Positions 2,731 through 53,478 of a DNA stretch of 64,000 bases are shown one piece after another. The notes beneath the pieces are model-generated. The model was not told where the DNA came from. It was given only the letters and a program-made list of their open reading frames with translations, and did no database searches. The stretch's first letter is position 1, and the number at the start of each line of letters is the position of its first letter. This stretch comes from Dicyema japonicum (Eukaryota > Dicyemida > Rhombozoa > Dicyemidae), in assembly GCA_011109175.1 (NCBI GenBank), contig RDEW01000032.1, forward strand, positions 92,404 through 156,403, read 5' to 3'. Both the position numbers and the translations under genes were made by a program.

Positions 2731-4367
2731 TCAGGTTTCTTCGAATAAGTGGGCAAAAATGTTGAATTCCTTGCGTTTTCGATTAGTATTCTCTTTCTTT
2801 TCAACATTTTCAGATTTTGCGGGCATCAAATGAGCAAAGATTATATGCTCTCTGAACATTTTCGCCTCACTTGCTGCTTGACTAGAAATACAAACTACGA
2901 CGAACTCTGGGTAAGGATTTGGCACGTTGAACCGCTCGCAGAACACATTATCAGGCACCCACCTAATAACCGTCCGTTGAGCGTCCTTCCACCGATTTGA
3001 AGCGATTTCTGAAATGAATAGATTAACGTACTTTCATCAGAGTTATCTTCTTTAGACTCGGCCTCGATTATATCAGTGAGAAGCTTACTCGCCCCAAATT
3101 TAATGGACCTACCATCAGTAATCTCAGTCAGTTTCTCTCCTGGAAGTTAATATTAAAAGAAAAACCAAATATATTGGCTCTGCAGACAGGGTTTTGTGAA
3201 AACCGAGATTTTTTGGTTTCAGATTTACTTTTTTCCGACTCAAAACGACTCGCTCTTGAAGGTCGGTAGATTTTGGTTGCCAAAACAAAAGGTTGATATA
3301 TTCTTATGCTTACCAGATGGACAGCTTCCTCAAATCCCTCTATATCTCCTTCAAATTTCTTAAAATCTTGGAATAATCACAAAATTAACTTAATGGGGCG
3401 TTCTAGCCATCCAATTTGTCTTTTTCCTAGTCTTCCTCATCTCTGACATCAAAATTGTAGTTATTCATGTCAATCGAAGAAGAAATGTTATTTTCGTCAC
3501 GTTCGAATGCTCCCACTCCAAAAGCCTACAATAACGTGTCCACGAATAATGAAAGCTGGCCCTTTGAAGACAAATGTTTCTCACGATCGAGGCCTAGACG
3601 GAATTGGGCAGTTGTAACGTCAGGATCCTTACTTTTTCTGCCAGAAATTGAAATTCCGCTATATCCGAGGCCAAACAGATTGTCCTTTATTTCAAAATCG
3701 ATGACTGGCACATCAGGGGGGTCAAAATCGCTAAATGATGGAAGAGGATCAGGTCGAGGACAGCAGCCATATATCCCCAAAGAAGATTGATTTTTATTGG
3801 CGTCAGATTCATATTTTGAACTTTTTTGACCACCAAAGTTAATTTCACGTTTAATTTTGGCTCCAACTCCCTTGCCTTCTCTCCAACCGAGGGATTTTAG
3901 CAATTTTATACCCATAGCATCACTCCCATCAGCAGGACTAAGTAAAACAACAAAATATACCAAAGAGTAGTGAGTTGAGTCATCAGACAGTCGCCAGAAT
4001 TTTTCTTCGCAAATTTTGCCTGATTGTATTCTTTTTTGGTTTGAACTCTTCTTGGAGCTATCCCAAATTCTCCTAGATCCTCTTCATCTATAAACGCTTC
4101 TGGGGCATGCTCACGCAAATCAGCTTTCTTTGATCTCGAAGAAATAAAGGAAGACGAAGCCCAACCTTCCTTACACCCGACGGTGTTGAAGTATCCAGCA
4201 GAAAAACCGCCTGTGAATGCACCATGGAATCGTTGTCGTCCTTCTTTGTCTGTGACTTTTTGGTGGTAAACTGCTGTAGGGTTTAGTATAAGTTCCTCAT
4301 CTTCTTTTTCTGAAAGAGTAGTTCCGTAAACGATGTATCTGGTATCAGACATAATTTTGTGACTCAT
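2731..4367 (-). CDS. GPATCH1: GPATCH1/TGH-like G-patch protein
   Basis: RNA-processing protein of the GPATCH1 (plant TOUGH) family, expected in spliceosome-associated complexes in the nucleus. The N-terminus carries the family signature: YIVYG, GRQRFHGAFTGGFSAGYFNT, then KEGWASSSFISSR and DEEDLGEFGIAP. After a 23-nt intron (3938-3960) comes the G-patch, GIKLLKSLGWREGKGVG. Then follow NLFGLGY, AFGVGAFER and, near the end, RTVIRWVPDNVFCERFNVPN, all family landmarks. Further introns fit at 3140-3165 (26 nt) and 3009-3031 (23 nt); an 18-nt candidate at 3526-3543 is less certain. One stretch (about 3370-3430, with a TAG at 3427-3429) does not resolve into a clean splice and may hold a sequencing error. 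The start is ATG at 4367 or 4352. The C-terminus is short relative to the vertebrate protein. Confidence 0.85.
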
Positions 4368-4499
4368 GACACACAGTGAATAAATGAGGTTATTATTTAA
4401 ATTTTTTAATTTAAATCTTAACAAATAACTTAATTCATTTAATAGTTTGAAAGTATTTGTTTTATGTTGAATATTTAATTAATTACTGCTGTTTACCAA

Positions 4500-6041: not shown

Positions 6042-6042
6042 N
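6042..6042. other. Single N at a sequence junction
   Basis: Similarity between the two adhesion-GPCR genes runs from 9941 down to about 6043 and stops exactly here; beyond the N nothing matches. This looks like an assembly join or an unresolved breakpoint rather than a natural gene end. Confidence 0.7.
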
Positions 6043-9000
6043 CACGCGGACTCGATTTATATTAAAAGTTACTAATATCATAAGTACGTAATTCAATTTC
6101 TCCAGAGACATTACTTTTTGAAGAAAATTCTATTTTTCCTTCTACTTTTTGTTCGATGATTTCATATTTTTTATTACTATCTAGAGGAATGCCATTTACT
6201 GGATCAAAGATAGCTTTTCTTGCTATAGACGCTGTTTCATTTGATAGATTATCTATTGATTCAAGTAATTCAAAAAAATCTTTAACATTTTGACCGTTCT
6301 AATATTATTATTTAAAATCAAAAACCTCATCGGTGTGATTACTTATCAATTTATCTTAGAATTAAAAAAATGACAAACCTGCTAATTTTTCTAATTTATA
6401 ATTAGGTTCGATTATTTTAACAAAGATTTTGAAGTTTGATGAATTTCCTCCATTTAGCAAGTTATTTAAATATTCATTTAGGAAATCATCTCTCGACTTT
6501 AATAAAATATAGGTAGAATTTTCATTTGGTCTTTCACTTTGTAAATATTCAATCATCATTTGAAAATTTATAAACATATTATTTTCATTGATACAATTAT
6601 TTGAGGCAAAATTCTCCACAAAACTTATTTTTTGTGAATCGTTATTAATATTATTAGTTATGATGTTTTGTAATTTGATCATCAATTCTTCTTTTAAGGA
6701 ACCGATCAAAAAGTTCCTAAAATAGACATCAGTAGAATTGAAGGATATTATTAATTCGCAAATAGATGTATGTGAACTTAATAAAAGTTTTGATTTTATA
6801 CCGTCAAAGAAAATATCTCTATCTTCATCATGATTCTATACATTATTAGAATTTTACTTTTTTGTTAAATAAGTATTTTAAATTTCGCAAATAATTTTGT
6901 TCCTCACTAAGTGAAATGATTAATTCTTTGAGACCTATGAATTATTTATATACATACAATAATTAAATTCTTTTATACCTGCACACCAGTTTAAAGTTTC
7001 ATCAATATTTGTATAATTATTTGAAATAGATGCTAATTTTTTAAATTTATACTCGAATTCATTAATTTTAATAAATAATTGAAAGTTTGATTCACTTCCC
7101 CCATTAATCAAAATATTAATATATTCATTAACAAAATAATTATTTGAAATAGATGCTAATTTTTTAAATTTATACTCGAATTCATTAATTTTAATAAATA
7201 ATTGAAAGTTTGATTCACTTCCCCCATTAATCAAAATATTAATATATTCATTAACAAAATCATCAAACGATTTAAATAAAACATCTGTAATATTTTCATT
7301 TGGTTCTTCGTTTCGTAAATGCTCAATTATCATATCAAAATTTATAAACTTATTATTTTCATTTACACAATTTGTATTATATTCTGAATTACCAACAAAA
7401 ATTATTTCTGCTGAATTTATATTTTTTAAATAATTTTCGAAAATAATTTGTAATCTGTTTTTTAATTCCATATTTATGGTATCGTATACAAACTGTTTAA
7501 ATTGGAAATCATTAAAATTAAAGGACATTATTTGGCAAATAGACATTAAGCTCAAAAAAGGTATTGATTTTACATTTTCAAAGATATTATCTCTATTAGC
7601 ATCATTATTCTAAAAATTATGAAAAATTTACTTTTTTGTCATATAAAAATTGTAAATTTTGCAAATAATTTTGTTCCTCACTAAATAAAATGATTAAGCA
7701 TCATTAACCTAAAAATTATGAAAAATTTACTTTTTTGTCATATAAAAATTGTAAATTTTGCAAATAATTTTGTTCCTCACTAAATAAAATGATTAATTCT
7801 TTAAGACCTATAAATTATTTATATACATACATTCATTTAACTTTTTAATACTTACACACCAGTCTAACCCTCCATCAATATCTGTATTATTATTTGAGAT
7901 AAATACTATTTTTTTTAAATTATATCGATAATCAATAACTTTAAGGAAAATATCATGATTTGATTCAGTTCCACCATTAATTATATTATTTAAATACTCG
8001 TCGACAAAATAATTAGTCCATTCAGAAGTTACTAATCTTCTTGATAAATGATAAAATATCATTTTAAAATTTATAAACCTATTATCTTCATCTATACAAT
8101 CAGGATCATAGAAAGAATTATCAACAAAAATTTCAGAATCTTTTCCATTTTCATAATATTTTTCTAATATATATTGCAATCTATTTCTTAATTCTTCTTT
8201 AATGGTATCTTTTAAAAATTTTTTAAAAAAATGATCAGTTATTCTGAAGGCCATTATTTGGCAAATAGACATTTTTAAACTCAAAAAAGGTATTGATTTT
8301 ACAATTTCAAAGAAATTATCTCTATTTGTAGAAGTTATCTAAAATTATTAAAATAAGACTTTGAGGATATATAAGTGATACATATTTGCAAAATAATGTT
8401 GTTCCTGACTAAGTAAAATAATTATTTGATTAAGACCTATGAATAAATTATATACATACAGTAATTAAATTCTCTTATGCCAAGACACCAGTTTAATGTC
8501 TCAATTTGTGTAATATCATTCGAGATAGATGCCATTTTTTTCAATTTATACTCGAAATTAGTAATTTTGACAAAGATTTGGAAGTTTGATTCATTTCCAC
8601 GAATAATTAAATTTTGTATATATTCATTAACAAAATCATATCTTGAATCCAGTAAAATTTCTCTCACATTTTCATTTGGTCTTTCGGATTTCCACGAATA
8701 ATTAAATTTTGTATATATTCATTAACAAAATCATATCTTGAATCCAGTAAAATTTCTCTCACATTTTCATTTGGTCTTTCGATAGTTAAGTGTTTTAGCA
8801 TAATTTCAAAATTTATAAACTTATTATCTTCATTTATACAATCAGGATCATTAGTATAATCATTAACATAAATTAATTTTGTAGAATATGAATTAAAATA
8901 AGTTATTATACTAAATTTAAAATCGTTTCTTAATTCTTCTTTTAGTGTCTCGATTACAACACTCTTCAATCCCATAGTAGTAAAATTGAAAGCAATTATT

Positions 9001-9941
9001 TGGCAAATAGATATCTCTAAACCCAAAAAAGTATTTGATCTTAAAGCGTCATAGAAAATATTTAAATTGGTACTACTTATCTAAAAATAAGGAAAATTTA
9101 ACATGTGTGAATAAGTTATTAATATTTGGCAAATAATTTGGTTCCTGACTAAGTAAAATAATTATCTGATTAAGACCTATAAATAATTTATGTACATACA
9201 GTAATTCAATTTTCTTATGCCAAGACACCAGTTTAGTGTCTCAATATGTGCAACATCATTCGAAGTAGATGCCATTTTTTTCAATTTATACTCGAATTCA
9301 GTAATTCTGACAAAAATTTGGAAGTTTGATTCATCTCCACTAATAATAATATTTTGTATATATTCATTAACAAAATCATATCTCGAATCCAGTAAAATAT
9401 CTGTCATATTTTCATTTGGTCTTTCAATAAGTAAATGCTCAATTATCTCTTGAAAATTTATAATCATATTATTTTCATCTATACAATTAGCATTATTAGC
9501 AATATTAAAATCAAATATTTTGGAATTATTTGGAGATTTAAAACAAATTATTATATAGAATTCTAATTTGTTTCTTAATTCTTCTTTTAGTGTCTCGAAA
9601 AAAAATTTCTTCAATTTTATAGTAGTAAAATTGAAGTTAAGTATTTGGCAAGTAGATATCTCTAAATCCAAAACAGTATATGATTTTATAGTGTCATAGA
9701 AAATATTTGTATTGGTACTACCCATCTAAAAATAAGAAAAATTTAACCTGTATGAATAAGTAATTAATATTTGGCAAATAATTTGGTTCCTGACTTAGTG
9801 AATAGATTAATTGTCTAAAACCTAAGAATAATTTATATATATACATTCATTAAAATTATTTCCTAAACAATTGTGCAATCTCTCATCAATTCTATCATGA
9901 TTTGAAACTTTTATAATATGCAAACAGCAGAAAAAAAGCAT
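6043..9941 (-). CDS. Adhesion-GPCR paralogue 1, N-terminal part with five ectodomain modules (truncated)
   Basis: Paralogue of the receptor gene at 28393-31436. ATG at 9941 (in-frame TAA just upstream) starts a hydrophobic signal-like segment (MLFFCCLHIIKVS). Five tandem modules follow, main exons roughly 9725-9190, 9080-8450, 8330-7825, 7610-6970 and 6840-6385. Each carries ICQI.(A/S)F, NC..ENN.FINF, RPNEN, NEYI.N.I..G.ESNF.IF.KI and, except the last, WC.GI. Introns of 21-24 nt separate a small exon (LSQEPNYL-type) and the main exon of each module; modules start and end in phase 1. After module five, two short introns lead to the start of the GAIN-like region (ASIARKAIFDPVNGIP), and similarity ends at the N at 6042. 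No GPS or membrane part is present downstream. Direct duplications inside modules 2 and 4 disturb the frame or add residues. Probably a secreted or cell-surface ectodomain whose membrane part is lost or unassembled. Confidence 0.8.
7014..7259 (-). repeat. 123-nt in-frame direct duplication in module 4
   Basis: Two essentially identical 123-nt copies (7014-7136, 7137-7259) add 41 residues around FVNEYINILINGGSESNF. No other module has this, so it is recent or an assembly artefact. Confidence 0.9.
7600..7797 (-). repeat. 99-nt direct duplication of the small exon and intron
   Basis: The linker exon (EEQNYLQNLQFLYDKK) with its flanking 22-nt intron is present twice at a 99-nt period, leaving an extra small exon between modules 3 and 4. 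Confidence 0.85.
8595..8784 (-). repeat. 95-nt direct duplication breaking module 2
   Basis: A 95-nt block covering VREILLDSRYDFVNEYIQNL is repeated almost exactly. Because 95 is not a multiple of three, the module 2 frame breaks at the junction near 8690. Collapsing one copy would restore the frame, which favours an assembly or very recent event. Confidence 0.85.
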
Positions 9942-15689: not shown

Positions 15690-16158
15690 ATTAAGCACTA
15701 CCGCGTTGCCATAAGCATGTAAGATGACTAGGGATTGCTCGTGCAGAACACACACTTTATTTAAGTAAAGAATAGTTATTAAAACTAAGCGTAGAGGGAG
15801 AACCAAAGAATGCTCTTCACTTATTTGTTTTTTATTTTTCTTGTGTGTATGTCCTATTGCCTAGGGTTTCGCTCGTGCAGAACACACACTTTATTTAAGT
15901 AAAGAACAGTTATTAAAACTAAGCGTAGAGGGAGAACCAACGAATGCTCTTCACTTATTTGTTTTTTATTTTTCTTGTGTGTATGTCCTATTGACTATCC
16001 AATTGGGCAGTGAATCTCCACTGATGACAGCGTCACTCGTCAGTCCTTTCTGCATCGTAGATGGGTGGAAACATCCACCAGATGAACAACAACAACAATC
16101 AAACCCGTGACCTAAGCAACTTTAGCCCATCACCTAACCACTATGCCACCCTGCATGA
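15690..16158 (-). mobile_element. tRNA-derived SINE inserted in the LINE, copy S1
   Basis: The minus strand has an A-box (TGGCATAGTGG, near 16148-16138) and a degenerate B-box (GGGTTTGATT). The tail 'acacacactttatttaag' also matches copy S2 at 32178-32505. The tail is duplicated in tandem (134-nt period, starts at 15737 and 15871). Confidence 0.75.
15737..16004 (-). repeat. 134-nt tandem duplication of the SINE tail
   Basis: Two near-identical units starting at 15737 and 15871. Copy S2 has only one. Confidence 0.85.
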
Positions 16159-27322: not shown

Positions 27323-27823
27323 NNNNNNNNNNNNNNNNNNNNNNNNNNNNNNNNNNNNNNNNNNNNNNNNNNNNNNNNNNNNNNNNNNNNNNNNNNNNNN
27401 NNNNNNNNNNNNNNNNNNNNNNNNNNNNNNNNNNNNNNNNNNNNNNNNNNNNNNNNNNNNNNNNNNNNNNNNNNNNNNNNNNNNNNNNNNNNNNNNNNNN
27501 NNNNNNNNNNNNNNNNNNNNNNNNNNNNNNNNNNNNNNNNNNNNNNNNNNNNNNNNNNNNNNNNNNNNNNNNNNNNNNNNNNNNNNNNNNNNNNNNNNNN
27601 NNNNNNNNNNNNNNNNNNNNNNNNNNNNNNNNNNNNNNNNNNNNNNNNNNNNNNNNNNNNNNNNNNNNNNNNNNNNNNNNNNNNNNNNNNNNNNNNNNNN
27701 NNNNNNNNNNNNNNNNNNNNNNNNNNNNNNNNNNNNNNNNNNNNNNNNNNNNNNNNNNNNNNNNNNNNNNNNNNNNNNNNNNNNNNNNNNNNNNNNNNNN
27801 NNNNNNNNNNNNNNNNNNNNNNN
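27323..27823. other. Assembly gap (run of N)
   Basis: About 500 unknown bases; the length is likely nominal. Confidence 0.99.
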
Positions 27824-28392: not shown

Positions 28393-31300
28393 TTAATTTG
28401 TGTGAATTGGTCGTCTTGTAAAATTTTGTCTTTTATTGGAAATAAAATTTTTGTAGAAAATATATTTATAAGCTTGAATAAAATAATTTGATTCAGTTAA
28501 GAGTAAATTTCCATTATCATTTTCTAAGGTAAGATCTAGGGCGTTTGTTTGTTGTGCGTTATCATTTATTGGATTTACTTTTTTAGCTAACGTTTGTTTT
28601 AAATTCATAGTATTTAAAAGGAGAATGAACAAACCTTGAAAACTAACGAAGATAATAAAAAAATATTCTAACACCGTGCTAAATCTAACAAAAAATAATA
28701 AAATCCATGGAAGTCCTAAAATATTTTATAAATTTACCTGAAAAAAAAAAAACTGAAAATAAAATTTTGTTTTTAATTGATTTTGTATTTATTGGTGTTT
28801 TAATTTTTATAAATCCACACATCAAAATAATGTATAATATAAAATTTAGAAGCAGACATATTATAATAGGACCAAGCAATCCCAAATAAAAGCCAAGTCC
28901 GGTTATCAAGCATTTCCCTTCGGAATAATAAACATTTTTATTTATCATTAAAATTAAACTGACAATAAAGAGTGGAATACCTAATTACAAATAAAACTAA
29001 TATTAAACCCCAACTAATAACAAATGCTTTGACCTTCAAATATTTGATGTTGACTCCAATTACTTTGTTAAATTTTAAATAATGTACAAATGATATTATG
29101 AACATCCACAAAAATTGAGTCAAAATTCCATAGTGGAGTAAAACTCCAACTATTACGCATTCTATAAAACTTTTCTGTGAAGAATAAATGATTCCAAAAA
29201 TAAACACCATGTTCAACATCAAAATTGATGTTTTCAAATTAAGTAAAAGAATTTGAAAAATAGAATTCTTCAAAAGTCTCAATTAAATAAATAATAGCAA
29301 CCTAAATTTGATTATAAATATAATAAATGAAAATATTATAGCGACTGTGGAGAAAGAAATTCCAATTATTGTAATCACTGTAGTTTCATCATTTTTAATT
29401 TCGGAGTTAGTTATAGGACCCTAACGTGAAAATGATAATTACAAATAGAATTGCAAAACTTGTCAAATGCAGAGATTTACAGATATAAAACAAATCAGCA
29501 ATTTCTATTCTACCCGCATTTTCCCAAAGGCCAGTTTCGTTGTTGTAAAATACACACTTTGGAGTAAACCCCTGTAATTAATATGTTTTGCTACTTTATT
29601 AGTATATTCACTATAATTTGAATGTATTGGAAATTTTAATGATAAAGATTTTATTTCAAACTGAGCGACAATCGAAACTTGAAGCGATTGTGGAGATGTT
29701 CCATTTGTAGGAGTTAATTTGCTTTCATTATGAACAACCACGCGAACTCGATTTATTTATAAAATTACTTTCGGTAGGATCTTCAGTAAGTAATTCGATT
29801 TCTCCAGTAACATTATTTTTTGAAGAAAATTTTGAATTTCTTACCACTATTTTATCGATGACTTCATATTTTAGAATACTATCTGGAGGAATGCCATTCA
29901 CTGGATCAAAAATAACTTTTCTTGCTATAGACGCAGTATCATTTGATAGTTTACTAGTAGATTCAAGTAGTTTATTAAATTTTGCAACAACTTCTTTTTT
30001 CTAAAATTTCATTTAAAATCAAATAACCTCATCGCTGTTATCCGTTTTTATCAAATTATCTTAAAATTAAAAAAAATTTTCCAACCTGCTAAATTTTTGA
30101 ATTCATACTCATATTCGGCAATTTTAACGAAGATTAGAAAGTTTGATTCATTTCCTCCATTAATCAAATTATTTAAATATTCATCCACGAAATAATCTAT
30201 CGACTCAAATAAAATATCTGTAGTATTTTCATTTGGTCTTTTGTTTCGTAAATGCTCAATTAACACTTCAAAATTTATAAACTTATTATTTTCATTTGTA
30301 CAATTAGTATCATTAGCAGAATTACCAACATAACTTAATTCAGAAGAATTTCTATTATTAAAATAATTTTCGATGATATATTGTAATTTTTTTCTTAATT
30401 CTTCTTTAAGGGTCTCGTGTACAATATTCTTTAACTGGATATCAAGAAAATTGAAGGTCATTATTTGGCAAATAGAAACCTGTGAACTCAAAAAAGGTAT
30501 TGATTTTAAATTATCATAGAAAATATCTCTATTTTTATCATTAGTCTAAAAATTATGAAAATCTGACTTTTGTTGCATACAAGTAATTTAAATTTTGCAA
30601 ATAATTTTGTTCCTGACTAAGTGAACTAAGTAATTCTCTAAGACCTATGAATAACTTATATCCATACAATAATTAATTTCTTTAGATCTACACCAGTCAA
30701 ATGCTCCATCGATATTTATGTTATTATTTGAACTACTCGCTATTTTTTTTAATTGATACTTAAATTGAGTAACTTTAACAATGATTTGAAAGTTTGATTC
30801 ACTTCCTTTATTAATCAAATTATTTAAATATTCAATGACAATTTCATATTTCGAATCAATTAACACTGAGTCAAAATAAAAAATTTCATTCGGTCTTTCT
30901 TTACGTACATAATCATTTATCTTTTTAAAATTTATAAAAATATTATTTTCTTTAATACAATTATCATCATTGTTTGAAGATGAATTATCAACAAAAATTA
31001 TTTCAGGAGAATTCCTTTTATTATTATAATAATCTTCCATGACATGTAGTAATCTGTTTTGTAAATCTTTTTTTAAGGTATCGCTTACAATCTTCTTCAA
31101 ATTATTATCAGTAAAATTGAAGGCCATTATTTGGCAAATAGAAACCTGTGAACTCAAAAATGGTATTGTTTTTAAATTATCATGGAAAGTATCTCTATTT
31201 TCATCATTAACCTAAAAATTATGAACTATGAACTTTTGTTTCATACAAGTAATTTAAATTTTGCAAATAATTTGGTTCCTGACTAAGTGAACTAAGTAAT

Positions 31301-31436
31301 TCTTTAAGACCTATGAATAACTTATACACATACAATTATTAAATTCACTTCCAATTGAGCACGATGCAAATTTCTTATCAATTATTTCATCACCATTTGA
31401 AATTTTTAAAATAAGCAACCAACAGAAAAGAATCAT
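28393..31436 (-). CDS. Adhesion G-protein-coupled receptor with two novel ectodomain modules (paralogue 2)
   Basis: Complete multi-exon receptor gene. ATG at 31436 starts a signal-like segment (MILFCWLLILKIS). Two ectodomain modules follow (main exons about 31185-30680 and 30540-30080; ICQIMAFNF, NC..ENN.FINF, ESNF), then a GAIN-like region (ASIARKVIFDPVNGIP) and a GPS at about 29560-29455 (CVFYNNETGLW ... HLTSFAIL, cleavage expected between L and T). Seven membrane segments follow: TM1 after FGPITNSE; TM2 (LLLNLKTSILML); TM3 with HYGILTQFLWMF; TM4; TM5 with GPIIICLLLN; TM6 with GLPWILLFF; TM7 with FVSFQGLFILLL. These are hallmarks of adhesion/class B2 receptors. About a dozen introns of 22-26 nt are needed, e.g. 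31311-31333. The GPS lacks two of its usual four cysteines. Stop at 28393. Ligand unknown. Confidence 0.88.
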
Positions 31437-32177: not shown

Positions 32178-32505
32178 TAGCTGGGTGGCATAGTGGTTAA
32201 GTGTCGGGCTAATGTGGCTTAGGTCACGGGTTCGATTTTCGCTGATGTTCACCTGGTGGAAGGTTCCACGCATCTACGATGCGGAAAAAGCTTGATGAGT
32301 GACGCTGTCATCACTGGAGATTCACTGCGGAACTGAATAGTCAAAAGGACATTCACACAAGAAAAAGAAAAAACAAAGAAGTGAAGAGTATTCATTGGTT
32401 CTCCCTCTACGATTATATATAATAACTCTTCTTTACTTAAATAAAGTGTGTGTTCTGCACGAGCTAAACCCTAGGCAGCTTATGGCAACGCGGTAGTGCA
32501 CAATT
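32178..32505 (+). mobile_element. tRNA-derived SINE, best copy (S2)
   Basis: A-box TGGCATAGTGG at 32186-32196 and B-box GGTTCGATTTT at 32229-32239, spaced as in tRNA genes. A body with 'gaaggttccac' and 'gatgagtgacgctgtcatca' follows, then a tail 'aataaagtgtgtgttctgca' up to 'gcaacgcggtagtgca'. The tRNA cloverleaf is not preserved. Other copies: 15690-16158 (opposite strand) and 24535-24710. Confidence 0.8.
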
Positions 32506-33860: not shown

Positions 33861-34910
33861 TTAAATAAAAATCGCTTTCGAGCTTTTATTCGATTTATTT
33901 GAATATCTGCTATTTCGTCGCCCAGTAATCAAGTTGACAAACTTAATGGAAATCGTTTTTAATCTGCCAACAAATAAATTCCACATATTTCTGTTATTAA
34001 TCAACACAAGGTAGAATTTTGCAGCAAAATGGGACGAATAAACGGCATAAAAATAAATCGATTTAATATGGTGGACAAAAAGCGAATATTTTATGGCCTC
34101 AAAATTCACATTAATACTTTTAGTCTTATATTCCTTTGTAACACTAATGTCGATAACGTAGATTATTGAGTAAGACAAGGCACACGTGACAAAGAATAGC
34201 GAAGTCACACACAGGTTAATCGTCAACCGAGAGAATAGGGGATTTTCTACATCGGTTATTTTGCAGAAACGAATCAATATCATGTTCAATATTATGACAG
34301 CCAAAGGAATGACCATAACCATGATTATCTGAACTACAATGAAATAATATTTCAGAAAATTCTTGAATTTTTCGTCGATGAGGATCTTACAGGAATACAC
34401 GCCAAATATGTCTCGCTCACTCTTGTAGGAAACTCCGGAAGGGATGCTTAGCAATAAGCAAACACAAATCACGACTAGAATTGCTATCCTTGCTGTCCTC
34501 CGCGAGCAGTAAATCCTTCGTAGTAACGGCTTTCTGATCGAAATGAATCTCTCAACACTGAAACAGAGGATCAGCATAGGCGAACAGTATTGACAAAAAT
34601 TGAAGAGTAATGCATTCAGTTTGCACATGAAATCACTTGAATCTAGACGATTACTTCCCAGCACAACGACTGATCGCAATCCACAGTTCGAAATGAAAAA
34701 CAGCAACTCAACAAATCCCAACGAAAACATATACAGCCCCGAAGAAAATTTCCACAGTTCAGGATTACTCCAGGTTACAATTGAAAAAATGTTTCCAGGA
34801 ATTCCCAATAAAGACCAAAATATAAGAAAAAATTTTTCCACTTGTATCACATAAGGCGGAATAATCTGTAACCTTCTTATTTCATAAATCAAGTCTGTTA
34901 GATTAGTCAT
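33861..34910 (-). CDS. Rhodopsin-like (class A) G-protein-coupled receptor, intronless
   Basis: Single exon of 349 codons from ATG at 34910. Seven hydrophobic segments are readable. TM1 has the GN motif (GIPGNIFSIVTW). A cysteine precedes TM3 and its end reads SVERFISIRKPL, replacing DRY with ERF. A cysteine in the second outer loop (YSCKILID) can pair with the TM3 cysteine. TM5 contains IPLAVIILN. TM7 reads SHFAAKFYLVLIN, so the usual NPxxY is altered to a form with alanine for proline. A basic, serine-rich tail follows. The overall pattern fits the invertebrate peptide-receptor-like groups expanded in spiralians, but ligand and subfamily cannot be told. Lack of introns, unlike its neighbours, may point to retroposition or to normal structure for this family. 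Confidence 0.8.
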   Translation of the reverse strand: MTNLTDLIYEIRRLQIIPPYVIQVEKFFLIFWSLLGIPGNIFSIVTWSNPELWKFSSGLYMFSLGFVELLFFISNCGLRSVVVLGSNRLDSSDFMCKLNALLFNFCQYCSPMLILCFSVERFISIRKPLLRRIYCSRRTARIAILVVICVCLLLSIPSGVSYKSERDIFGVYSCKILIDEKFKNFLKYYFIVVQIIMVMVIPLAVIILNMILIRFCKITDVENPLFSRLTINLCVTSLFFVTCALSYSIIYVIDISVTKEYKTKSINVNFEAIKYSLFVHHIKSIYFYAVYSSHFAAKFYLVLINNRNMWNLFVGRLKTISIKFVNLITGRRNSRYSNKSNKSSKAIFI

Positions 34911-39200: not shown

Positions 39201-42200
39201 GTTGGATCAACTCCAAAGACAAATGATTCTCAGATTCTACCAATTCTGCCAATTTCAGTCCAAGTTCTGGTTTTTCGTGTTTAATAGTAAGTTCCAGAAG
39301 CTAAGATATAATTTAACCAGTCACGTGGTTTGCAAGGCCTGCCTTGGAAGTAGAAAAATTAATAATCGACATGAAATCCTTCATATCAGGGTGGACTTTC
39401 AACTCGATACTCCTCGTGATGAAGAAGATTCTAAAGTTCTCATTATAGTCCAATATTTTGTCCCCCAGTTCAATGGTCTGGTGGAGACCTACAATCAATA
39501 ATTATTAGAAACCCTGGATTTTTACTTCCCGCCTTATAATTGGGTATAAAATCGGTCCAATTTCATCGGCTTCCAACACTGCCAACGTTTTGCCAAATCG
39601 TACGGCCAATTCAAGGGAAGTGATAAAATTAGAGTCCTTTCAGTGAGGAATTCAAATACCTGTTGTTGTATGAACTCTATCTTTGGATGAATGCCCTTTA
39701 ACCAAGAAATCGAACGCTGTGATGGATCAATCAAGTAAGGGATCAAAATAGCCTTGGAATAAATAGATCATCAACCTGAGATAGCATCAGTCCATTCTCA
39801 TCTAAAGACGTTTCTTGCAAAATTTTGTCACTCTCAGTTCCAATAAAAGAAGAAAAGTTAAACTCTTCAACATCTAAAGAGTCCATCCATGAGTTCAGGC
39901 ATGTTTTTCTCAGTTTTTCATTAGCTGGGGGCAAATAAGTCATATAAGCAGCAGCTAGAAGGGAGTGCATCTCCAACTTCGTAATTTCCTTGTTAATGTC
40001 GTCTATCTGAGTGATCCAACGATCGTTTTCTCCCTGTAATTTATCCATCAGAGTCATAGAAGCCTTGATGACTTTGTCTGACTTTTCGAGCTCTTCTTTT
40101 AGCTTAGAAGTTTCGTGGGTGAATGATTCAAAATTTCGACGAAGACTCAGGATTTTATCATCAACTGTCTCCAATTCTCCCTTGAGAGACTTTAATCTTC
40201 TTTGAGAGGCGTCAATATTCCTGAAATATAGCCCCTGAAATTACCGCTGAAGCTCTTTTTGCTCCTTCATCATGTCTATGATTGATTCGTAGACCTTAGC
40301 GTACTGAATAACCGCCTTCGTCCACTGTGCTAAGGGAGCAGCTGCTAGTGATGCTCGCTTGGCATTCTAGTAAGATTTGATAGGATAAATACATTTTCCG
40401 TGAAGGATTCTGAGCGTTGAGCTACAATCTTTTCGACATTCTTCCAATTTTCAGGGAGGATTTTAGAAATATCAGTCGATATCAAGTCTTCTTTTATCCC
40501 ACGTGTCCCAAGTACTCTAAATTTAGATTACTAATGTATTTACTTCTTCATACTATTCCACGATACATCCTGGATTCCGAGAAGTCGAAGAACACACTCC
40601 AAAATATCTCTAACAACATCAGGAGGGACACGTAAGGATTTTATCTCCGATAAGGAATCACTAGTTATCCCCTTTATTGAGGCGTTAGCCGCTTCAATTG
40701 TAGGCTGTACAGACGCCAGCTTTCTGTCGATTGGTTTTTTCTTTTCCTCAATTTTTTTAGTCTCGTCGACTATAAGGCGTTGTAATTCGGCAATTTCTTC
40801 CCTTTGCTTAGAGGTTTCCTTAGAATTAATCACCCATTCACCTGCATCGTCTGCGTGATGCTATTCAAGGCTTCGTCGGCATTTTTCTGTTTAATAGGAA
40901 GGAGCTTTGACTTTTCAGCAGCTTCTTTCTTCAACTGTTCAACTAATATTTTGGATTCCGAAAGTTTATTCAATCCACTCTAGCAATGAGAGAGAGGAAC
41001 ACCTGTAAACGAGCCAGCTTAGAAGACAAAATATCCTTCTTTTGGTTCAATATCTTATAGTAGGCTTTTATGAAGGTTATATATTTAAAAGGGAATATCT
41101 CAATCCCGTTAGACTGACATAAAAGATGGACATCGTAAAAATTGCCAGTCTCTTTGAAATCCTTAATTTTTGGAAGCACATAGGGCGGTTGAGTTGGGTT
41201 GTTAAGCTGATGAAGCAGATAAGCAGGGATCTGAGGTAAATAAAACTAAGACCTTTCTCATAGTTTCTGTTTTCCAAGATTGTTGCCAGATTACGTTGCA
41301 ATCCGTGAAGAATACGGGATTGTTTTTCAAAATATCCGAGAAATTATCGGCCTTGTCATTCAAAAGTAGAATCACGTGCAAATTCATTCGGACCCCTTAA
41401 AATTAAATGGCAGCAGACTAGTAACGAAGAATTCATGCAGTGAGCCTTCAAAGTTTGCGTCAGAACACGTGTCTTTTAGTGAAGAGATCAACGATTCGAG
41501 TTCTCCCTTTTTATACAAATCAGGAATTTCTCCACAGGCGAGAAAATTGTTGACCATCTCATAAAAGGAGAGACTTTTCAACTGATGGTCCTTCAGTAAG
41601 AGTACTACCTCCTCTCCATCCACACCAGCACATTGTATAGCCTGGAATATCCACAAAGTCAAACCGTTTTTAAATAATCTTTAAAATGCTTCATTCGATA
41701 GTCCCTGTTTATTTTGGGAGTGATAACCTTCATTTGTTGTAGGAAAGAAGTCAAAAGAACTGCAGAAGTTCTTCCAAGTCCACTGCTTCCAATAAAAATT
41801 GCTGACCCACGTGGCTGAGTTAATATACGGTCTAGTCTGACTACATTTTCGATAAAATCATCAATGGGAATAATCCTTATGTCAGTTACCTCACGTGCTG
41901 AGATAACTAAACAAAATACCGTAGTTTTTAAGACCAGTAGAAATTATCAACGATATGTCCTCACTAGTGACTTCTGTGAGACCCTTCAAGTTGTTTGGTG
42001 ACTGGCTTAGAGAAGTGAAGATTACTAAAAATAAAAAGCTCAGCAACCATCAGTCAAGTCAGTCAAAGAATAATCCCAGTTGGATTTTATTTTCGCGCTT
42101 AAAATTCCGTTAAATTTTAATAGCAAATCAGAATCGCCTATTCGGTCCCGGAATGATCTCAAAATTTCGTTCACCAAGATTTTCAAAATCTAAGTTCAAA

Positions 42201-45200
42201 TCGGGTTCATTACATATTTCTGGTTTGATTTGCCGTCAAAATAATATTTTTCTAACCCGCAGATAATTGACTGATATTTTTAGAATTTATCGCAAATCGA
42301 GAAACTTCAACGTTAAAAGTGTTTTTCAGCTACAATTAACTTAAACTCAACTTCAAAGAAAAATTCAACCAAAAAATCGGTCAATTGGAAAATTTTGCTT
42401 TCAGAAACTTCAGTAGGACTAACAGATTTACTTTTCAGGACCGAAGACAAAAGGATAGAAAATATCTTTTTCATTTCGTGCTCATCAAGAGGCCTTGGAG
42501 TAAACAAGACAATTCTTACTCAATGTAGCAAATAGGGATCTCCGAAGTGAACCTGTCTGACAGCTGGTATCTCCCAGGCGCTGATTCTCCCGTAATCGCA
42601 CAGACAAACTGAATTCCTTCCAATAAGACAAATTCAAGGTTGGAATCATAAAATCCATTATAAGTGAAGACCTTGAATAAATATTAAATAGACTTGTTGA
42701 AGAAATGATATCAGTTGGGTGGTACCCCATTTATCAGGCTTACAAAAGTCGACATTTTTAAGATAGAAAACAATCCTCTCGCAATCCTTTGGCTTATACA
42801 CCCTTCCAGTTGTCGTCGTCATTATAATACAAAACTGGGAAAGACGTTGTATTATGTGCTCCGGGCTGGTTTGAGTACTGCAGTATAGAGTAGTCATGAA
42901 AACAGATCTCAGATCACTACAACACTTATTTAGCATTAATCTGCAGGTTTTATTAAAAATTACGTTTTTCCGCTCCCAGAAGGCCCTACCAGTATAAAGT
43001 TGTGTAAATTATAAGAATTCAGGTATTTTTTGAAGAATCCTATCTTTCGCTGTGCGGATGCAGTGTTTATAAAAGGAACAGTTAATGTACCGACGAAGTC
43101 TTCATCGATCTAAAATATATTTGGAGAAGACTAACATTATCTATGTATGGTTTAAGGTTTTTCCCATCAAAGTAATAATTGGTTGGATCCCCTGAAGGTT
43201 CTGGCTCTCCAATCAGCTCGTAAACCTTAAATAGGCTGAAATTAACATACATGTTTGGCAAGACGTTGACGGTAAATTTTATCGCCGTTACTACCGAATC
43301 CGTGAATCAAGGCAATTCCGAACTCAGTCAAAGCGTCAACTCCTTTCAAATTGGATAAGCCGTTGTTAACAAATCCCACTGTACTGACCTCAATAACTAA
43401 CTTCCTCTTAAAATCCCATAAAATGAACTTACATGTTCAAAAGACCACTGAAGGACTTTATAAAAATAATCTTTTATCCATTCTGACAAATTTTCATTAT
43501 CAGAAGAGAACCGTCTGATCCATGAAGTCAGAGAGAATCAACATTGACGGATTCATCACTAAATAAAAAAAGTTTAAAACCTAATATAAACAACCCCCAA
43601 ACGTGAGATTGTTGCTGGTGAAGCATTTCCAAGGTGATGAGTCTCGAAAATGAAATTTACGTTGTTCCCAAATTTTAGTCTTTCTCCAGAAGGTAAGGTT
43701 AGCAGATGATTGTCATCAAGTACCGAATTCAACGATTCAATCCATTCAGGATCAATATCGCCGTCACAGACAACAAAGGAAAAGACATCGGCTGATTCCT
43801 TAACGACCTGACGTGCAGCATATGTTATGATCCCATCAGTCCATTCCCTTGTGTCATAATCTATACTTCCCAACAGCTACAAAGTTAATCATTTTCTTAC
43901 CTGTGCCTTCGATATAGCTTTTGGGTTCATCGTATAAAGTCTTACTGTCTTGTTAGCTTTAATTAGAGCACTTCTCAGTATTTTCCATAAGGTTGATTTC
44001 CCTGATCCACTGGGACCGAATATGACCACTCCGATTCGTTGTTGAATTTGTTCATAAAGCTCAAATACTTTCTGAATCTAAATACGTGTTTCTTAGGAAC
44101 GACCTGTTTGGGGGACTCTGTAAGGTTCATTTCTCTGTAGCTTTGCTTAATAAAGTCATAGAGATAATTTTCGAATGTGTTTGATAACTGAATATCCTGG
44201 AAAACACTTTTGATTAAGTCGTCGAATATTAGCGAGTCGTAATGAGTTAGCTTTGAAAGAGTATTGATCCTTAAAGCCTTTACTACAATATCAAATTCAT
44301 CGGTTTTTTTATTTTCTAAATAAATTTATATTTTGAACCACTTTGGATCATTCTACCCGAGCTTTTCAAAACAGTCTTTAATGCTCGAAGTCCCCAGTCA
44401 TAGTGTTGTTGGGAGGTTAGTAAATCCCTAAAAATTAGGCTTCTAGTACTTGGCTGCTGAAAAAATTGAGACGAGCTTTTTTCCTATGGCCTTTGCTTCA
44501 GTAAATCCCTCGGAGAATAAAATAACTTCTGCAATAAGTTCATTGTCTGGTTTAGACATGACGACCGGACGGAATAGCTGCTTCAAATTATCAGGCAGTT
44601 TCTGACGACCTCCATATCCTTTACAGGCAGGATTCAGCGTGATAAAAATATTGGAGTTGAAATTTACACTAATCTGTTAGATAAATTATTCGACTGACAT
44701 TTCTTCCGAGAAGTTGGACGGTTTTATGTCGAAATTTAACCGCCTGCTGGATGATTTGAATGTGCATAGAAAGGATTGAAAGAACAGACTCTTCCAGGCG
44801 GTTAAATTCATCAAAGCATCCCCAAGCACCGCATTTTAAGAGACCGACGAAAATCCTCTCCATTGACTTTACATCGATTCCCTAATCATTATAAAAAGCT
44901 AAGTGACCTCATCACAGTTAAAGACAAGAACTTGTCTTCCTAAAATAGCGCCGAGAGCTTTAACCGACTCCGTTTTGCCCGTTCCGGCAGGTCCATACGG
45001 ATTTCCTCCCAATCCAGATACCATGGCTATGATTTATACAAAATAATGTGAACCCTGAGTTAGAGTGAGAAAGCATTTGTCCGTGAGTGGGGTATGAACC
45101 AGTTTCGGGGTATTTCCCTGATATTCGTATGAGTAATTTATATTAGAGTCCACCATCTTATAAAATATATCGCCCTTGTCAGAATAAGCTCTATTTGTGT

Positions 45201-48200
45201 TTAACACTGAGCATACCGAATTTGCTTCTGCCAATTCCAGTCGTTAATTCCACGGACTTTATCACTAATCAGCTGAGTGACCAGATTCATATTATGAACA
45301 CTGTCGAGAATGCAGTCTTTCAATTTTAGAATCAGGACTTGATCTTTGATCTTAGTTTTCTGCGCATCGCAGTAGTTTTTCAGTTGATTCTGAACTTCCC
45401 TTTTGAGCCCTTCTAGTGATCCTCCCATTATAGCCTTCTCACATTTCGCAGTAAACTGGATTGCCTCAACAAGGGAGAGGATCTTGGCTACAATCACTGA
45501 TTTACCTGCGCCGGGTAGTCATTCGGATTTATTTGACGAGTCTTATACTGCTTAATAGCATCATTCGCGAGATTTGATAGAGTTTTTACCATTTCTTTGG
45601 ATAATTTCATTAGCCAGTCCTTTAGTCAGAAACAGACAAACTTCAATTGAGTTTGTGATAGTAATTGGACAGGTCAAAGTGACTCGTTCACCTTCCAATG
45701 ATTGGATGGCAGTAATCATGTCTTGTTTTTCGTTAAATTCCACGGAATAAATTCCAGCAAATAACTTGTTGAGGTGATCTTGGATGACTGAGGGTTTTGT
45801 CGATTGGCCAATGATCTCTAGTAAATTTTCATCCCCAATAAAATAAAATCTTGGAAAATTTAATCGTTTCTCCTTAGAATTAAAGACTAAATAAACTTCG
45901 AGGTAATCATTCAAGGCTTTTTGACAGCGATAAAGCTGATCAGAAGCATTCTCTAGCTGAGTTTGGATGCCGGATCTGTTTAATAAAGAAACAACTCGAT
46001 TATCCCCATATATATCGCCCAAAATAACCCTAAAGTCAATTAGCGTAAAAACTTGAAGTCGTTGTTTGTTTTATTGAATCTTGACTGCTGAGGGAGACAA
46101 CCCTTCCCAAATATGGGCTCTAAGTGAACCCATTTTCTTTGAACAGTATTGAGCACATGCAGCAAAATATCCAACTGTCCCAGTTTTTGCTCCCAAACTG
46201 AGATTTTGTCTTCAAATAGATTATAATAAAGGAGTTCTTTGAGTGATTGGACCATCAGCTGGTTGTCTCCAATCTGAAATTAGATAAAAATCTTACGCAT
46301 GTCAGCAGTTCCTTCCACTCTTTTATGATAGATACGATTGAGTTGTCTGTTGTGGTGTAATTTGTCAAAAAAAGCGTGCAACTCAATCTCCAAATGTCAA
46401 GTTACCTCAAAGCTATTCTTATGGTAACCTCTCCTTTGGCTTTTTTGCTGAGTTCCTGTAAAATGAATGTTTTCAGAACCTTCAAATTCTCAATTTGGTA
46501 CAAAATTTAATTTGTGCTGTTTATATGGTCTCCGAGTAAAGGTTTTTGAATTGTCATGTCTTTCGTGAGTTTTATGAGGGTAAACAGCTCAATCCATAGA
46601 TCAATGTCATGTCTTCTCCAACAAACCATTTAAAGTATGGAATCGATTACTAAAATCCTAGAAAATACTACAAACTTTTAATTTGTCAATTTTCTTGGTT
46701 AATTTGATATTTACTGCCGACTTCTTCTCTTTAGCTTGTCGTTTACTCCACGAGTCGATTAGATCGGCAAATTCATCAGGATTTGTCCTATATATTAATT
46801 CGACAACCAAACCTGAATGAAATTCAATCTTCAGATTCCAATTTCTCCATTTCGAAAGATAATTCCAGTACTGTCTTCCAATTTAACTGTTTTTTACTAA
46901 TTCTTGCAACGGTAGTATCGATTTCTGGTCGAAGCGAATCCTTCATGTCATGAGATTTAAAATTTCGTTTTTGTATCGAAATTGAAAGAATTACATCAAA
47001 GATTTTAATTCCGCTAATATTTCGTTAAAATCTCTTTTCTGGTTGATTATTTGAACAGCCTTTGCTCTGAGTTGTGCGAGATCACAGTCCAAATGGAAAT
47101 CCTTAGGCATTAAATGCTTCCATCTGGATTTCAATTTTAGATTTTTTGTTATTAAGGATAATATCGGTCGACCAATTTTTTTAATAATTTTGAATGTTGA
47201 TTTAAATGTGTCAAATTTACTTGATTTTTCAACATTTTATCAAAGTTTGTTAACGTCTCATCAAATTTTTCAAATTTACTCCTTGCCGTGGTCACTGCTG
47301 ATATTCCCTTTCCGGCAACAATTTTCAACAGTTTATTCTTTCTTTCAACAAAATTTATCTCATTTCGCAACTGCGGCTAAGTATTACAGAATCTTACCGA
47401 ATCGCACTCTTTAATCCATTCCTTATGTTTCTTCGAATATTGAGCAACCTCGTCTGAATTTTGTGGCTTCTTTTCTAGCGAGGCTCGAGCCGGCTGAAAG
47501 ATTGTCACTAAATTTTTTATTTGTCGCGTGAATTGACTGCGACAAGGAAGAAACCAAAGCTTCAAAATATCTCTCCAGCAAGTCATCAATGCTTGCCTTC
47601 ATTAAAATTGTATTTATAAGAATACAGTCCACTTTAATCTCACTTGAATTAAAAACTGATAAACTTTTGAATTCTTTCAGCTTCCCGCCCTTTAGTTTTC
47701 AATTCGCGGAAATTTTCTTCAAATTCTGAAATTTCTGAGACGTTTTGATTCACAAATTCTTGCAGATCGACAGTGCTGAGTACAAACCAAGGCTGGGAAT
47801 TAATAAATCTCAGACTCTAAAATCTTGAATAATCTCCCCAAGTTTAGCGAAAATAACTTGTACTTTGTAATATACGTATTTTAATCTCTCAACGTTTAAA
47901 TATATCATTTTTAGAAAAATTTGGTTTGGCTTTCCCCCACTGACTCCCCAAAAATGTTTTGGGAGCATTATAAATTTCTTTATCTCATTTATAAAAGCCA
48001 CTCTAATTTCTTCTTAAGACAGTTTGAATTGAAGCTTATTTTGTCTAAAGTAAGTCAGTTCGCAGCCGGAAGATCAAATCCGCTTTAACAGTGGGAAAAT
48101 CATTATGGAACATTTCAAGCCCAGTCTGAAACTGAAATTCAAAAGCTTTGTATAACTGAGGGTCCCAGTGGTTCCTCCAACCTCTCATATCTTCGGGGGA

Positions 48201-50585
48201 GTATCCCTGGATATATATTTGATTCTACCTGAGCTTCTACTGAGGAAAATATCTGACGAATAATGACCATCTCACTCTTCCACTTCTCTTGGCTTCTTAG
48301 TAAATCCACATTAAATAAGTTGACCACCTATTAGTGAGTGGAATTGAGATCAACCTTATCAATTAGTTGCACGTGGATGGACCTGAGGTGTCTATTTTCC
48401 TGCGAGAGGCGTTCAGAAATATCCTTCAGTTTCTTTACGTAAGTATCGAGGTCTCTTGTGTTTTCCCACGTTAGTTCCACGTGTCCACCTATTTGTTAGC
48501 CTTAATTACACCTTGACTTTGATTGCGGACTATTTTTTCAAACGCATGTGCAGTACAAATCATTAGTGGTTTCTGACTGGCAATCATTTGGCGGTCAATA
48601 GAATTGTAGAAATGGGCGACTTTCCTCAGGGATATTCCGTAGTTGTAGTATTTATTGCCTTCGTTGACAATATCCACTATTTTTGAAGGAATTTCAAATC
48701 CCAAAGCCGAAAGATGCCGGACCTCTTCTATGAGAACCACCAGTTCATCGCTGTAGCTTACAGTTAATTTATCATTTTTATAATCCATCGTCATTATTTT
48801 ACCAGTAATGATCAATCTGGTAATTAAGGCAAAAATCACTTGCTGTCGTACAAATTGGCTCGATTTATCACGTCCTCGCACCAGTCGTTGTACTGGTCAA
48901 GTTTCAAGGTGCTTAGTTGAGATTGTAAGTCATTCAACGTCGTAATAAACTCAGAAAAGCCGTTAATTTCCCTCAAAATAGAATTTCCAATACTGATATA
49001 TTCGTTGACCTAAAATTAATACATATTCTTGCTTTATGTTGCTTCTGAATAATCCACGTAATGTAGTTGATAAACTGGGATCTATGAATTATCTGAGGAG
49101 GATCTTTTCTATTGGCGATGACGTCATAAAATTCTTCCTTTAGCTGCCTCACATGAATTTTGAGCTGAGCAAATAGACTTTCTCTAAGAACGTTAATCAT
49201 TCCAAACCTTTCGTCAATCAACCTATCCTTGATTTGGGGCTTAGCGAGCAGATCTCTAAATTGTACGATGTGGCTCAAAAACTTATGTTAGAACATAACA
49301 ACAAACCTGGTTCGGATTTTTGTTGAATTTTGTAAAATATTTCTTCAAATTTTCAACACAATCAGGAAGCAATTTCTCAATAATCTTATTGTACTGAACT
49401 AGAGCTTTTTTCCATTCAGAAAGAGAATATAAATTCGACTGAAAAGCGTTAACATCTTTAATTAACTACTTGCATACGTTTAAATGATTTGAAAATATCT
49501 TCATCACCACAAAAACCTGAACTGTTATTCCCGGCAATTTTTATTAATTGTTCGCCACATATTTTAATATTTTTAATCTAATTAAATTAACAATAATTTA
49601 CCTCTTCAATTCTTTTAGTTAATTCTATCATCATATAAGGTTTAAATTCAGTGCCTTTCCATGTATGAGAGGCTAATCTTGGCCAAAAGTTTTTAGTCTG
49701 GGATGTGCACAATTCTCCAAACCGTCCAGTGATTTTTTCGGTTTCTACAAGAATTTCAATTGCTTTGGAAAACGGGAGATCCCAAATGTTTTCTTTTGCC
49801 AATAATACTTGCAGTTGAGTAGAAATTGAGCTGTCAAATACAAGCAAAAAATGCTCCATTCGCTCTTCGGGATAAGGTTGGGTCTCATTTTGTTTCCACA
49901 AATCATCAAGGACGTCAAAACATACTTCAATAACTTCTTCAAAGTCCGAGATCTCTAATCCTTCCATTTCACTCAATTGCCTTCTCAGAGGCTCAAATAA
50001 TCGTCCGTAAACTTTTCCTTTGAGAGATTCAGATTTGTCCGATTTTGAAATCACGAGACTCCAATATTCGAATTCATCATTTGGAGTTAAAATATCTTAA
50101 TATTGAAAAAAAAGTACAGCTGTAGTTATGACCCCCTGAAGTTGATCTCTTAAGCCAATTTTGAAGTCCGGAATCAAGTTGGGTTAAAATATTTTGAAGA
50201 GTCGAATCGATTTTTATTTTGTTCGAATTTAATAAAGGACCGTATAACTGATGAATTGCATAGTAGAAAGACTTCTCGGGAGAAGACGTCAATGATGTCA
50301 TCAAAATTTTATTTCGCACGTTCTTATCCTCAAATACTGGAATTTTAAAAAAGGCCAAAGTATTTTTAGCTGATTTTTCTTCGCTAAGCTAAATTATACA
50401 ATCAAATGTTGTTTTACTTTGAGACTCATCGCTACTGTATTCGATTCTTTCTGGCAATACAAAATAGCACTTGTCTCGCTCAAAAATTGTAATATAACAT
50501 TCAGGTTTTCTTGATTTAGTGAATTTTCTGGACAATTGAAATAATTTGTTGCTGTGGAAAATATAGAGTCCTTATTTTCTTCCAT
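36254..50585 (-). CDS. DYNC2H1: Cytoplasmic dynein-2 heavy chain (retrograde intraflagellar transport motor)
   Basis: Very large AAA+ motor gene for ciliary retrograde transport. ATG at 50585 is preceded by an in-frame TAA. Landmarks in order: dynein-2-type tail ([39 protein letters not shown]), linker ([33 protein letters not shown]), AAA1 P-loop [15 protein letters not shown] near 45000 and [15 protein letters not shown]2 [11 protein letters not shown] near 44010, AAA3 GPSGSGKT near 42980, AAA4 GSSGLGRTS near 41800 (no Walker lysine), stalk coiled coils about 40970-39760, AAA5/6, and C-terminus ending ALFSLSG-like region with [49 protein letters not shown] and [12 protein letters not shown]. 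Sequence resembles DYNC2H1 rather than dynein-1 or axonemal chains. Dozens of introns of about 22-30 nt (e.g. 36413-36438, 26 nt) break it into many exons; I did not place all. Stop TAG at 36254-36256. CACGTG is strongly clustered in its 3' third. Confidence 0.93.
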
Positions 50586-52695: not shown

Positions 52696-53478
52696 TTATT
52701 TACAAAACTTAAATTTTTTCTGCCTTCTGTTAGAGAACCAAATCCTTACACTACACTCCGGCAAATCCAAGTTTTTTGCAACTTCTCGAATCTCTAATTT
52801 GGAAGGATAAATGTCGTGATTGAACATTTTTTCTAACTTTTCTTTCATATTCCTGTTGAAACACCTTCTTTTCTTGGCACTCTGAAACGTGGACGACCTG
52901 ATCTCGGATTTAGAGGGAGAGTCCTTCATTATTAGTACCAAAATATTAGCAAAAATATTTCTGAATCTTTTCATGCTTATAAAAGAAAGTTTTCCACACT
53001 CAAAACGGCAGACCGTCGATTGACAAACGGGGTACCCATTCTTCTCAAGTAGCGAGGCAATGTCTGATTGCGCATAACCAAGTTTGCTACGTTCTCTCTT
53101 AAAAAAATTAGCAAAACAATATATGTCCGACTGTGGATTTTTTACTTCACAAAAACTGTCGGCCTGGAGTAGTGATCCATTCGGTTGAGGGACGTAACTC
53201 AAGGCTGAATCATTACTATTTTGTCTGGCTAAATAGTCGGTTCCTCGATGGTAATCAGGTTCACTTGAATTCAAATTGCACAGAGAGGTGTAGTTCAGGT
53301 AATTATTTGGATTCTGAACGTTAACTGCATATAAGGCATCTGTAAATGTCAAATGAGACGAGTTGCAGGAAATAATCTGGTTTCCATGGGAATAATCGTA
53401 GTAGTTTAGCCCAGGGTCATTATTGGAAGTTGTATAAGTTTCGAAATCTTTTTGTAGCCCGTTGAACTGATAACCCAT
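52696..53478 (-). CDS. Divergent POU-homeodomain transcription factor, intronless
   Basis: Nuclear DNA-binding regulator of 260 residues from ATG at 53478. The first 120 residues are Asn/Ser/Tyr-rich and probably disordered. A POU-specific domain follows at about residues 119-185 (FANFFKRERSKLGYAQSDIA, then CQSTVCRFECGKLSFISMKR). A short linker leads to a homeodomain at about 200-258 (KKRRCFNRNMKEKLEKMF ... VRIWFSNRRQKKFK). The recognition helix has serine where POU homeodomains usually have cysteine (WFCNRRQK). The POU-specific half lacks the usual 'QADVG' wording, so the class cannot be assigned; it ends right after the homeodomain. No intron is needed. Two CACGTG sites lie at 53495 and 53598, just upstream of the start. 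Confidence 0.9.
   Translation of the reverse strand: MGYQFNGLQKDFETYTTSNNDPGLNYYDYSHGNQIISCNSSHLTFTDALYAVNVQNPNNYLNYTSLCNLNSSEPDYHRGTDYLARQNSNDSALSYVPQPNGSLLQADSFCEVKNPQSDIYCFANFFKRERSKLGYAQSDIASLLEKNGYPVCQSTVCRFECGKLSFISMKRFRNIFANILVLIMKDSPSKSEIRSSTFQSAKKRRCFNRNMKEKLEKMFNHDIYPSKLEIREVAKNLDLPECSVRIWFSNRRQKKFKFCK

Follow-up and report, generated by a model that had tools for sequence, protein, structure and literature searches.

A dicyemid adhesion GPCR gene with an ectodomain of unassigned tandem modules

The genome of Dicyema japonicum, as judged from its sequence, very probably encodes an adhesion GPCR whose ectodomain is built of modules that we cannot assign to a domain type. The locus, at 28393..31436 on the minus strand of the 64,000-nucleotide stretch of contig RDEW01000032.1 analysed here (hereafter the window), is confirmed at the sequence level as a real and complete adhesion GPCR gene. 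The class of the receptor is a known one; the module, and the family in which its copy number varies, are new to the sources that we searched, and no paper pairing an adhesion GPCR with a dicyemid was found in the literature searched. Dicyemids are minute parasites of octopus kidneys from which few receptors are known, and the module offers a well-delimited object for studies of structure and ligands.

Structure of the gene

Removal of 12 GT..AG introns of 22-28 nt each leaves one frame on the minus strand, which runs from an ATG at 31436 to a stop ending at 28393 and comprises 13 exons and 919 aa when intron 11 is placed as corrected here. The initial annotation had proposed about a dozen introns of 22-26 nt; there are indeed 12, and the coordinates given for the gene were exact, but the range of lengths extends to 28 nt. 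The splice sites as first placed also gave one open frame, but intron 11, originally put at 28980-28959 (22 nt), was rejected in favour of 29008-28981 (28 nt, phase 1, minus strand), which fits better. We adopt this placement because it restores the WGIP motif of TM4 (SWGIPLFIV), raises the 7tm_2 score of the C-terminal fragment from 64.0 to 75.9 bits and puts the intron at the same place as in 5/5 paralogs; the protein thereby becomes 919 instead of 921 aa long. From module 2 to the end of the gene, the same 10 introns occur in all five paralogs that carry a seven-transmembrane (7TM) region (50/50 within one residue, compared with 46/48 under the old placement), although the sequence aligner admitted introns of 20-30 nt only, so that the lengths common to the paralogs are partly built in.

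The held-out locus was scored with a Viterbi gene predictor whose training set was six genes outside the module family and whose length prior favours short introns by construction; its score was 210.6. The opposite strand scored 19.9, and 200 dinucleotide shuffles of the locus gave a mean of 16.3 and a maximum of 27.0. The held-out run adds three introns and differs in a splice near intron 11, and its score therefore backs the locus and not every junction. Short introns are also common in seven other receptor models from this genome (66 of 79 introns measure 20-30 nt, lengths that the predictor's prior favours), and the introns of Dicyema sp. have a reported median of 27 bp, compared with 57 bp in an orthonectid (PMC6543705). 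Standard or exon-by-exon annotation can easily overlook genes with such short introns.

The receptor core

The profile search places a PF00002-type seven-transmembrane region in the window receptor (Pfam 7tm_2, E 1.4e-16), at 28609..29390 on the minus strand. The C-terminal fragment of the corrected model scores 75.9 bits against a cut-off of 20.6 and covers positions 4-250 of the 250 in the profile, which bears out the full class B2 7TM region first proposed. The GPS profile of Pfam is likewise matched above its curated cut-off, at aa 563-601 (26.0 bits against 22.5, E 1.3e-5), corresponding to 29446-29562 on the minus strand and to C118:121849-121965 in the genome search, with HLT at 29461-29469. 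The HLTSFAILF sequence at aa 594 is a putative cleavage triad followed by a tethered-agonist-like sequence, and the TM3 motif (aa 690) and FQGLFI were both located in the spliced protein, as the initial annotation had claimed for all three. In the search of PDB sequences, adhesion GPCRs took the first 23 of the 44 rows, with ADGRG6 as the best match (8.4e-20). A search of public proteins through the 7TM part, in which 7993 candidates were scored, returned 11 receptors, among them Octopus and Trichinella entries, all of which (11/11) carry both Pfam 7tm_2 and GPS.

The GAIN-like region could be upheld in part: its B subdomain-like portion, including the GPS, lies at 29446..29895 (minus strand), and subdomain A was not recognised in the window receptor by sequence comparison. 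Ahead of it lies a linker of about 46 aa (29896..30059, minus strand, interrupted by an intron at 30027-30001), which is defined by position only and may form the end of GAIN subdomain A. The canonical GPS pattern of adhesion GPCRs has four cysteines. Two of the four are absent from the window receptor; those kept, C565 and C590, would bond with each other. About 575 aa precede the cleavage region, 13 N-glycosylation sequons precede the 7TM region, and the start of the protein, judged by eye, is signal-peptide-like.

The modules

The ectodomain has two helical modules of about 200 aa each, both on the minus strand. Module 1, placed by protein-to-genome alignment, spans 30723..31370 (introns 31333-31311 and 31233-31212; cysteines 26, 35, 86 and 145), and module 2 spans 30040..30701 (introns 30667-30645 and 30567-30546, with a further one, 30085-30060, near its end; cysteines 234, 242, 293 and 349). 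The module is a two-exon cassette, and the long exons of the two homologous copies are 56% identical. Across 10 modules compared, three cysteines are invariant and one nearly so, together with many conserved residues. AlphaFold, run on the long exon of module 2 and hence with the first helix missing, returned a mostly helical, compact and confident fold (pLDDT 81.9).

As in the initial annotation, the modules could not be assigned to a type by our searches. All Pfam rows for the two-module ectodomain were under the cut-off, with neither HRM nor any other Pfam domain detected; among 10 single modules searched against Pfam the best E value was 5.5e-4, in 1/10 members; and the best profile match among PDB sequences had an E value of 0.024. 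Similarly, about 5.8 billion proteins yielded no meaningful match, and the predicted fold, lacking its first helix, matched none of the PDB folds at E<=0.001. Because the searches elsewhere missed the module while 17 copies occur at seven loci of this genome, the one dicyemid genome searched, we retain the term lineage-specific. Distant copies were also sought at other class B2 loci, two of which, C1:500k and C111:24k, resembled the module by eye. C1:500k was rejected (hhalign 13.1, compared with a maximum of 18.2 in 40 shuffles), as were C124:502k, C159:227k and C113, whose hhalign scores fell within those of their own shuffles; C111:24k scored 25.2 (shuffle maximum 19.5) along a stretch of 28 residues, which is a weak hint.

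It may be that the module instead derives from GAIN subdomain A, copied repeatedly ahead of the receptor, and that it has a structural or mechanical role and is not a separate binding domain. In the single-module paralogs C118_38k and C7, a signal-like start, one module and a linker of about 46 aa are all that precedes GAIN-B, so the module sits where subdomain A would be; that subdomain has been described as a helical bundle of variable make-up, with 2-6 helices (PMC11697300), and helices also predominate in the module. Yet hhalign comparison of the module profile with the subdomain A stretches of eight of the 11 adhesion GPCRs retrieved yielded an E value of 0.28 and an alignment of at most 13 columns, which does not support such an origin, and the linker alone could form a minimal subdomain A of two helices. 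A longer GAIN alignment extends into the module at the lowest confidence only, and the PDB fold matches listed show no GAIN entry, which excludes nothing. We regard this origin as unlikely, and prefer to treat the module as a domain in its own right.

The module family and its evolution

The module query returned at least 28 matches in the genome, and all of those scored fall into seven loci, of which contig C118 has five and C175 and C7 have one each. Protein-to-genome alignment resolved these into 17 modules and two fragments, namely two modules in the window adhesion GPCR gene, five in a sister gene that also lies in the window, five at C175, two at C118_84k and one each at C118_16k, C118_38k and C7. 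A 7TM region adjoins the modules at six of the seven loci. The sister gene (6043..9941, minus strand) holds its five modules, the linker and the start of the GAIN region; its homology ends at a single N (6042), beyond which the 7TM search gave no 7TM match. It also shows short partial tandem duplications around 7632-7807, 8530-8688 and 7031-7135. Single Ns occur in the window at 6042 and 13821 and a 501-base run of Ns at 27323-27823, about 570 bases downstream of the adhesion GPCR gene, suggesting scaffold joins inside the receptor cluster.

The introns of the modules are conserved in position: one at residue 13 in 15/17 modules, one at residues 38-40 in 17/17, and a third, at residue 192, in six of the seven last modules and in no others. 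In the window gene the first two have phases 1 and 0, so that a segment bounded by two successive residue-13 introns could be copied in frame. The family very likely grows by duplication of the two-exon cassette and of whole genes, and the paralogs exchange stretches, probably by gene conversion. Indeed, identity along the window gene is mosaic, the nearest paralog switching from C118_38k over aa 474-553 (98-100% DNA identity) to C118_84k over aa 634-713 (100%); gene conversion or unequal exchange is the simplest reading of such mosaic paralogs.

Pooled dN/dS by counting, from 15 pairs of six genes and the corrected 919-aa model, was 0.79 for module 2, 1.12 for the linker, 1.06 for GAIN-B, 0.39 for the 7TM region and 0.83 for the C-tail. 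In bootstraps that ignore the shared ancestry of the pairs, the ratio for GAIN-B exceeded that for the 7TM region in 990/990 comparisons, and that for the module did so in 99.9%. Maximum likelihood, applied to the codons of the earlier 921-aa model, gave omega values of 0.53 for modules, 0.64 for GAIN-B (six genes) and 0.39 for the 7TM region (six genes); 13 of the 17 modules were used, four having been dropped for a frameshift or stop, and the two fragments were also left out. The contrast between ectodomain and 7TM region is smaller by maximum likelihood than by counting, but both methods agree that the ectodomain evolves faster, that the 7TM region is the most conserved part and that the modules are constrained coding sequence. 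Comparison of models M1a and M2a in our own code gave p values of 6.5e-5 for the modules (n=13), 0.14 for GAIN-B and 6.4e-4 for the 7TM region; since the last arises through one site and gene conversion is probable as well, positive selection in the modules is not claimed.

The number of modules varies from one to five among paralogs, and at other class B2 loci of this genome Thr/Pro-rich stalks precede the GAIN region, as might be expected if the modules were a spacer or shield that keeps the cleavage region off the membrane and has no specific ligand. Their conserved cysteines and other residues, their omega of 0.53 and the confident, compact prediction are nonetheless unlike low-complexity stalks, and we think it improbable that spacing is the whole of their role; a ligand-binding module is the reading that we favour.

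The window gene has zero frameshifts. The five 7TM-bearing paralogs (L021, L022, L023, L025 and L026) together have 20 frameshifts and four stops in their aligned parts, with three frameshifts in C118_16k, four in C118_38k, three in C118_84k, six in C175 and four in C7, and two stops in each of C118_38k and C175; C175 has further breaks in its earlier modules. In 15 of the 19 listed frameshifts two bases are left in place of a codon, and many adjoin short A or T tracts. These lesions reflect either decay or assembly error, which may affect much of the family. Should the paralogs be pseudogenes, the ectodomain ratios close to neutrality would lose some of their meaning. The cluster could even be a decaying family in which the window copy is open by chance and is not a working receptor, given that all five 7TM-bearing paralogs have frameshifts, two of the five have stops and dN/dS is near-neutral outside the 7TM region. 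However, the window copy is open across 919 codons and 12 introns, and the ratios for the 7TM region (0.39) and the modules (0.53) point to constraint. PacBio RS II and Illumina data were combined in the published D. japonicum assembly (PMC6736024); if ours is that assembly, the small indels could be errors. We consider it very unlikely that the window copy owes its open frame to chance, and treat it below as a working receptor.

Discussion

In adhesion GPCRs the GAIN region is cleaved at a site of the HL|T type, and a tethered agonist is freed by load or by a ligand. This mechanism is also described in PMC11697300 and PMC12716839. It is quite likely that the window locus is a nuclear gene for an adhesion GPCR with a tandem module ectodomain which works by GAIN cleavage and a tethered agonist as others do. 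The GAIN region would cut itself at HL|T, and the module-bearing fragment would stay bound non-covalently. Engagement of the modules, or a pull on them, would then bring the tethered agonist TSFAILF to the 7TM region and make the receptor signal. Signalling through this agonist seems to us fairly likely. We infer that the modules have a ligand, in keeping with the 'binding ectodomain' of the initial annotation, and that the module recognises a specific one is somewhat likely.

The nearest solved receptors by sequence, ADGRG6, ADGRG2 and ADGRD1, share with the window receptor an HL|T-type GPS, a tethered-agonist-like sequence (here TSFAILF), a class B2 7TM region with cysteines in TM3 and before TM5, and the WGIP of TM4; unlike them, it has unassigned modules and no HRM was found in it. 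It also departs from the canonical adhesion GPCR pattern in the two missing cysteines of its GPS. Choanoflagellate and metazoan subfamilies likewise share a GAIN/7TM core and are marked by different N-terminal domains, but the N-terminal domains named in the passages compared are of known types (PMC12716839), whereas here the tandem module is unmatched and varies in number. The Octopus receptors (P0003-P0006) share the class B2 7TM region and GPS at 25% identity over the matched part, but their ectodomain is leucine-rich and has no module; a host-derived copy was rejected on these grounds.

By the same method, PF00002 matched 14 loci of the 64.67 Mb genome and PF00001 five (six matches, two of them at one locus). 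The window receptor's own 7TM region gave 40 matches, and merging these by neighbourhood with the PF00002 search yielded 28 loci, weak fragments included, of which 15 have a GPS match within 1 kb. Dicyemids have been described as exceptionally poor in membrane receptors, with four PF00002 and two PF00001 proteins in Dicyema sp. and zero PF00002 proteins in orthonectids (PMC6543705). The Dicyema sp. proteins represent the same 7TM family in a dicyemid, but they number four, compared with 14 PF00002 loci here, and section 10 of that paper gives no description of their ectodomain. PF00002 loci thus outnumber PF00001 loci by 14 to five, and some of the former carry a domain that the searches located nowhere else. 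One might speculate that adhesion GPCRs have become the foremost GPCR class of dicyemids, whose bodies have about 30 cells, and that they carry an invented, recombining tandem module subject to diversifying pressure. The modules would then serve as a variable repertoire with which the parasites recognise the surface of their cephalopod host or tell self from non-self among themselves; this is possible but doubtful.

A second class B2 group has Thr/Pro-rich stalks (TPTTTPTP) before GAIN and comprises L028, L032, L038/L057, L053 and L065 (contigs C120, C111, C124, C124 and C159, respectively); in four of its five models the GPS is without the same two cysteines. One of the five PF00001 loci found in the genome lies in the window, 2.4 kb from the adhesion GPCR gene, as an intronless rhodopsin-type GPCR of 349 aa (33861-34910, minus strand; 7tm_1 E 2e-18) with the ghrelin receptor as its best PDB sequence (5e-7).

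The GC content of the window is 34.6%; values of 67.5 Mb and 36.7% GC have been published for D. japonicum (PMC6736024). This GC content, the genome size of 64.67 Mb (about 65-68 Mb in published dicyemid genomes), the introns of the adhesion GPCR gene and a POU-homeobox ORF in the window are all compatible with a dicyemid. A repeat at 32180-32361 (plus strand) and 16133-16154 (minus strand) has a start that, by eye, resembles a tRNA-derived SINE head; ARAGORN for tRNA and Rfam at the gathering score had zero matches in the whole window, this repeat included. Across the genome, 40 of its 1348 candidate copies were scored, and 40/40 had 88-100% identity. The window also contains, all on the minus strand, a DUF1604 ORF (3906-4424), dynein heavy chain pieces (39743-50054), a POU plus homeodomain ORF (52696-53478) and a reverse transcriptase ORF (61066-61998).
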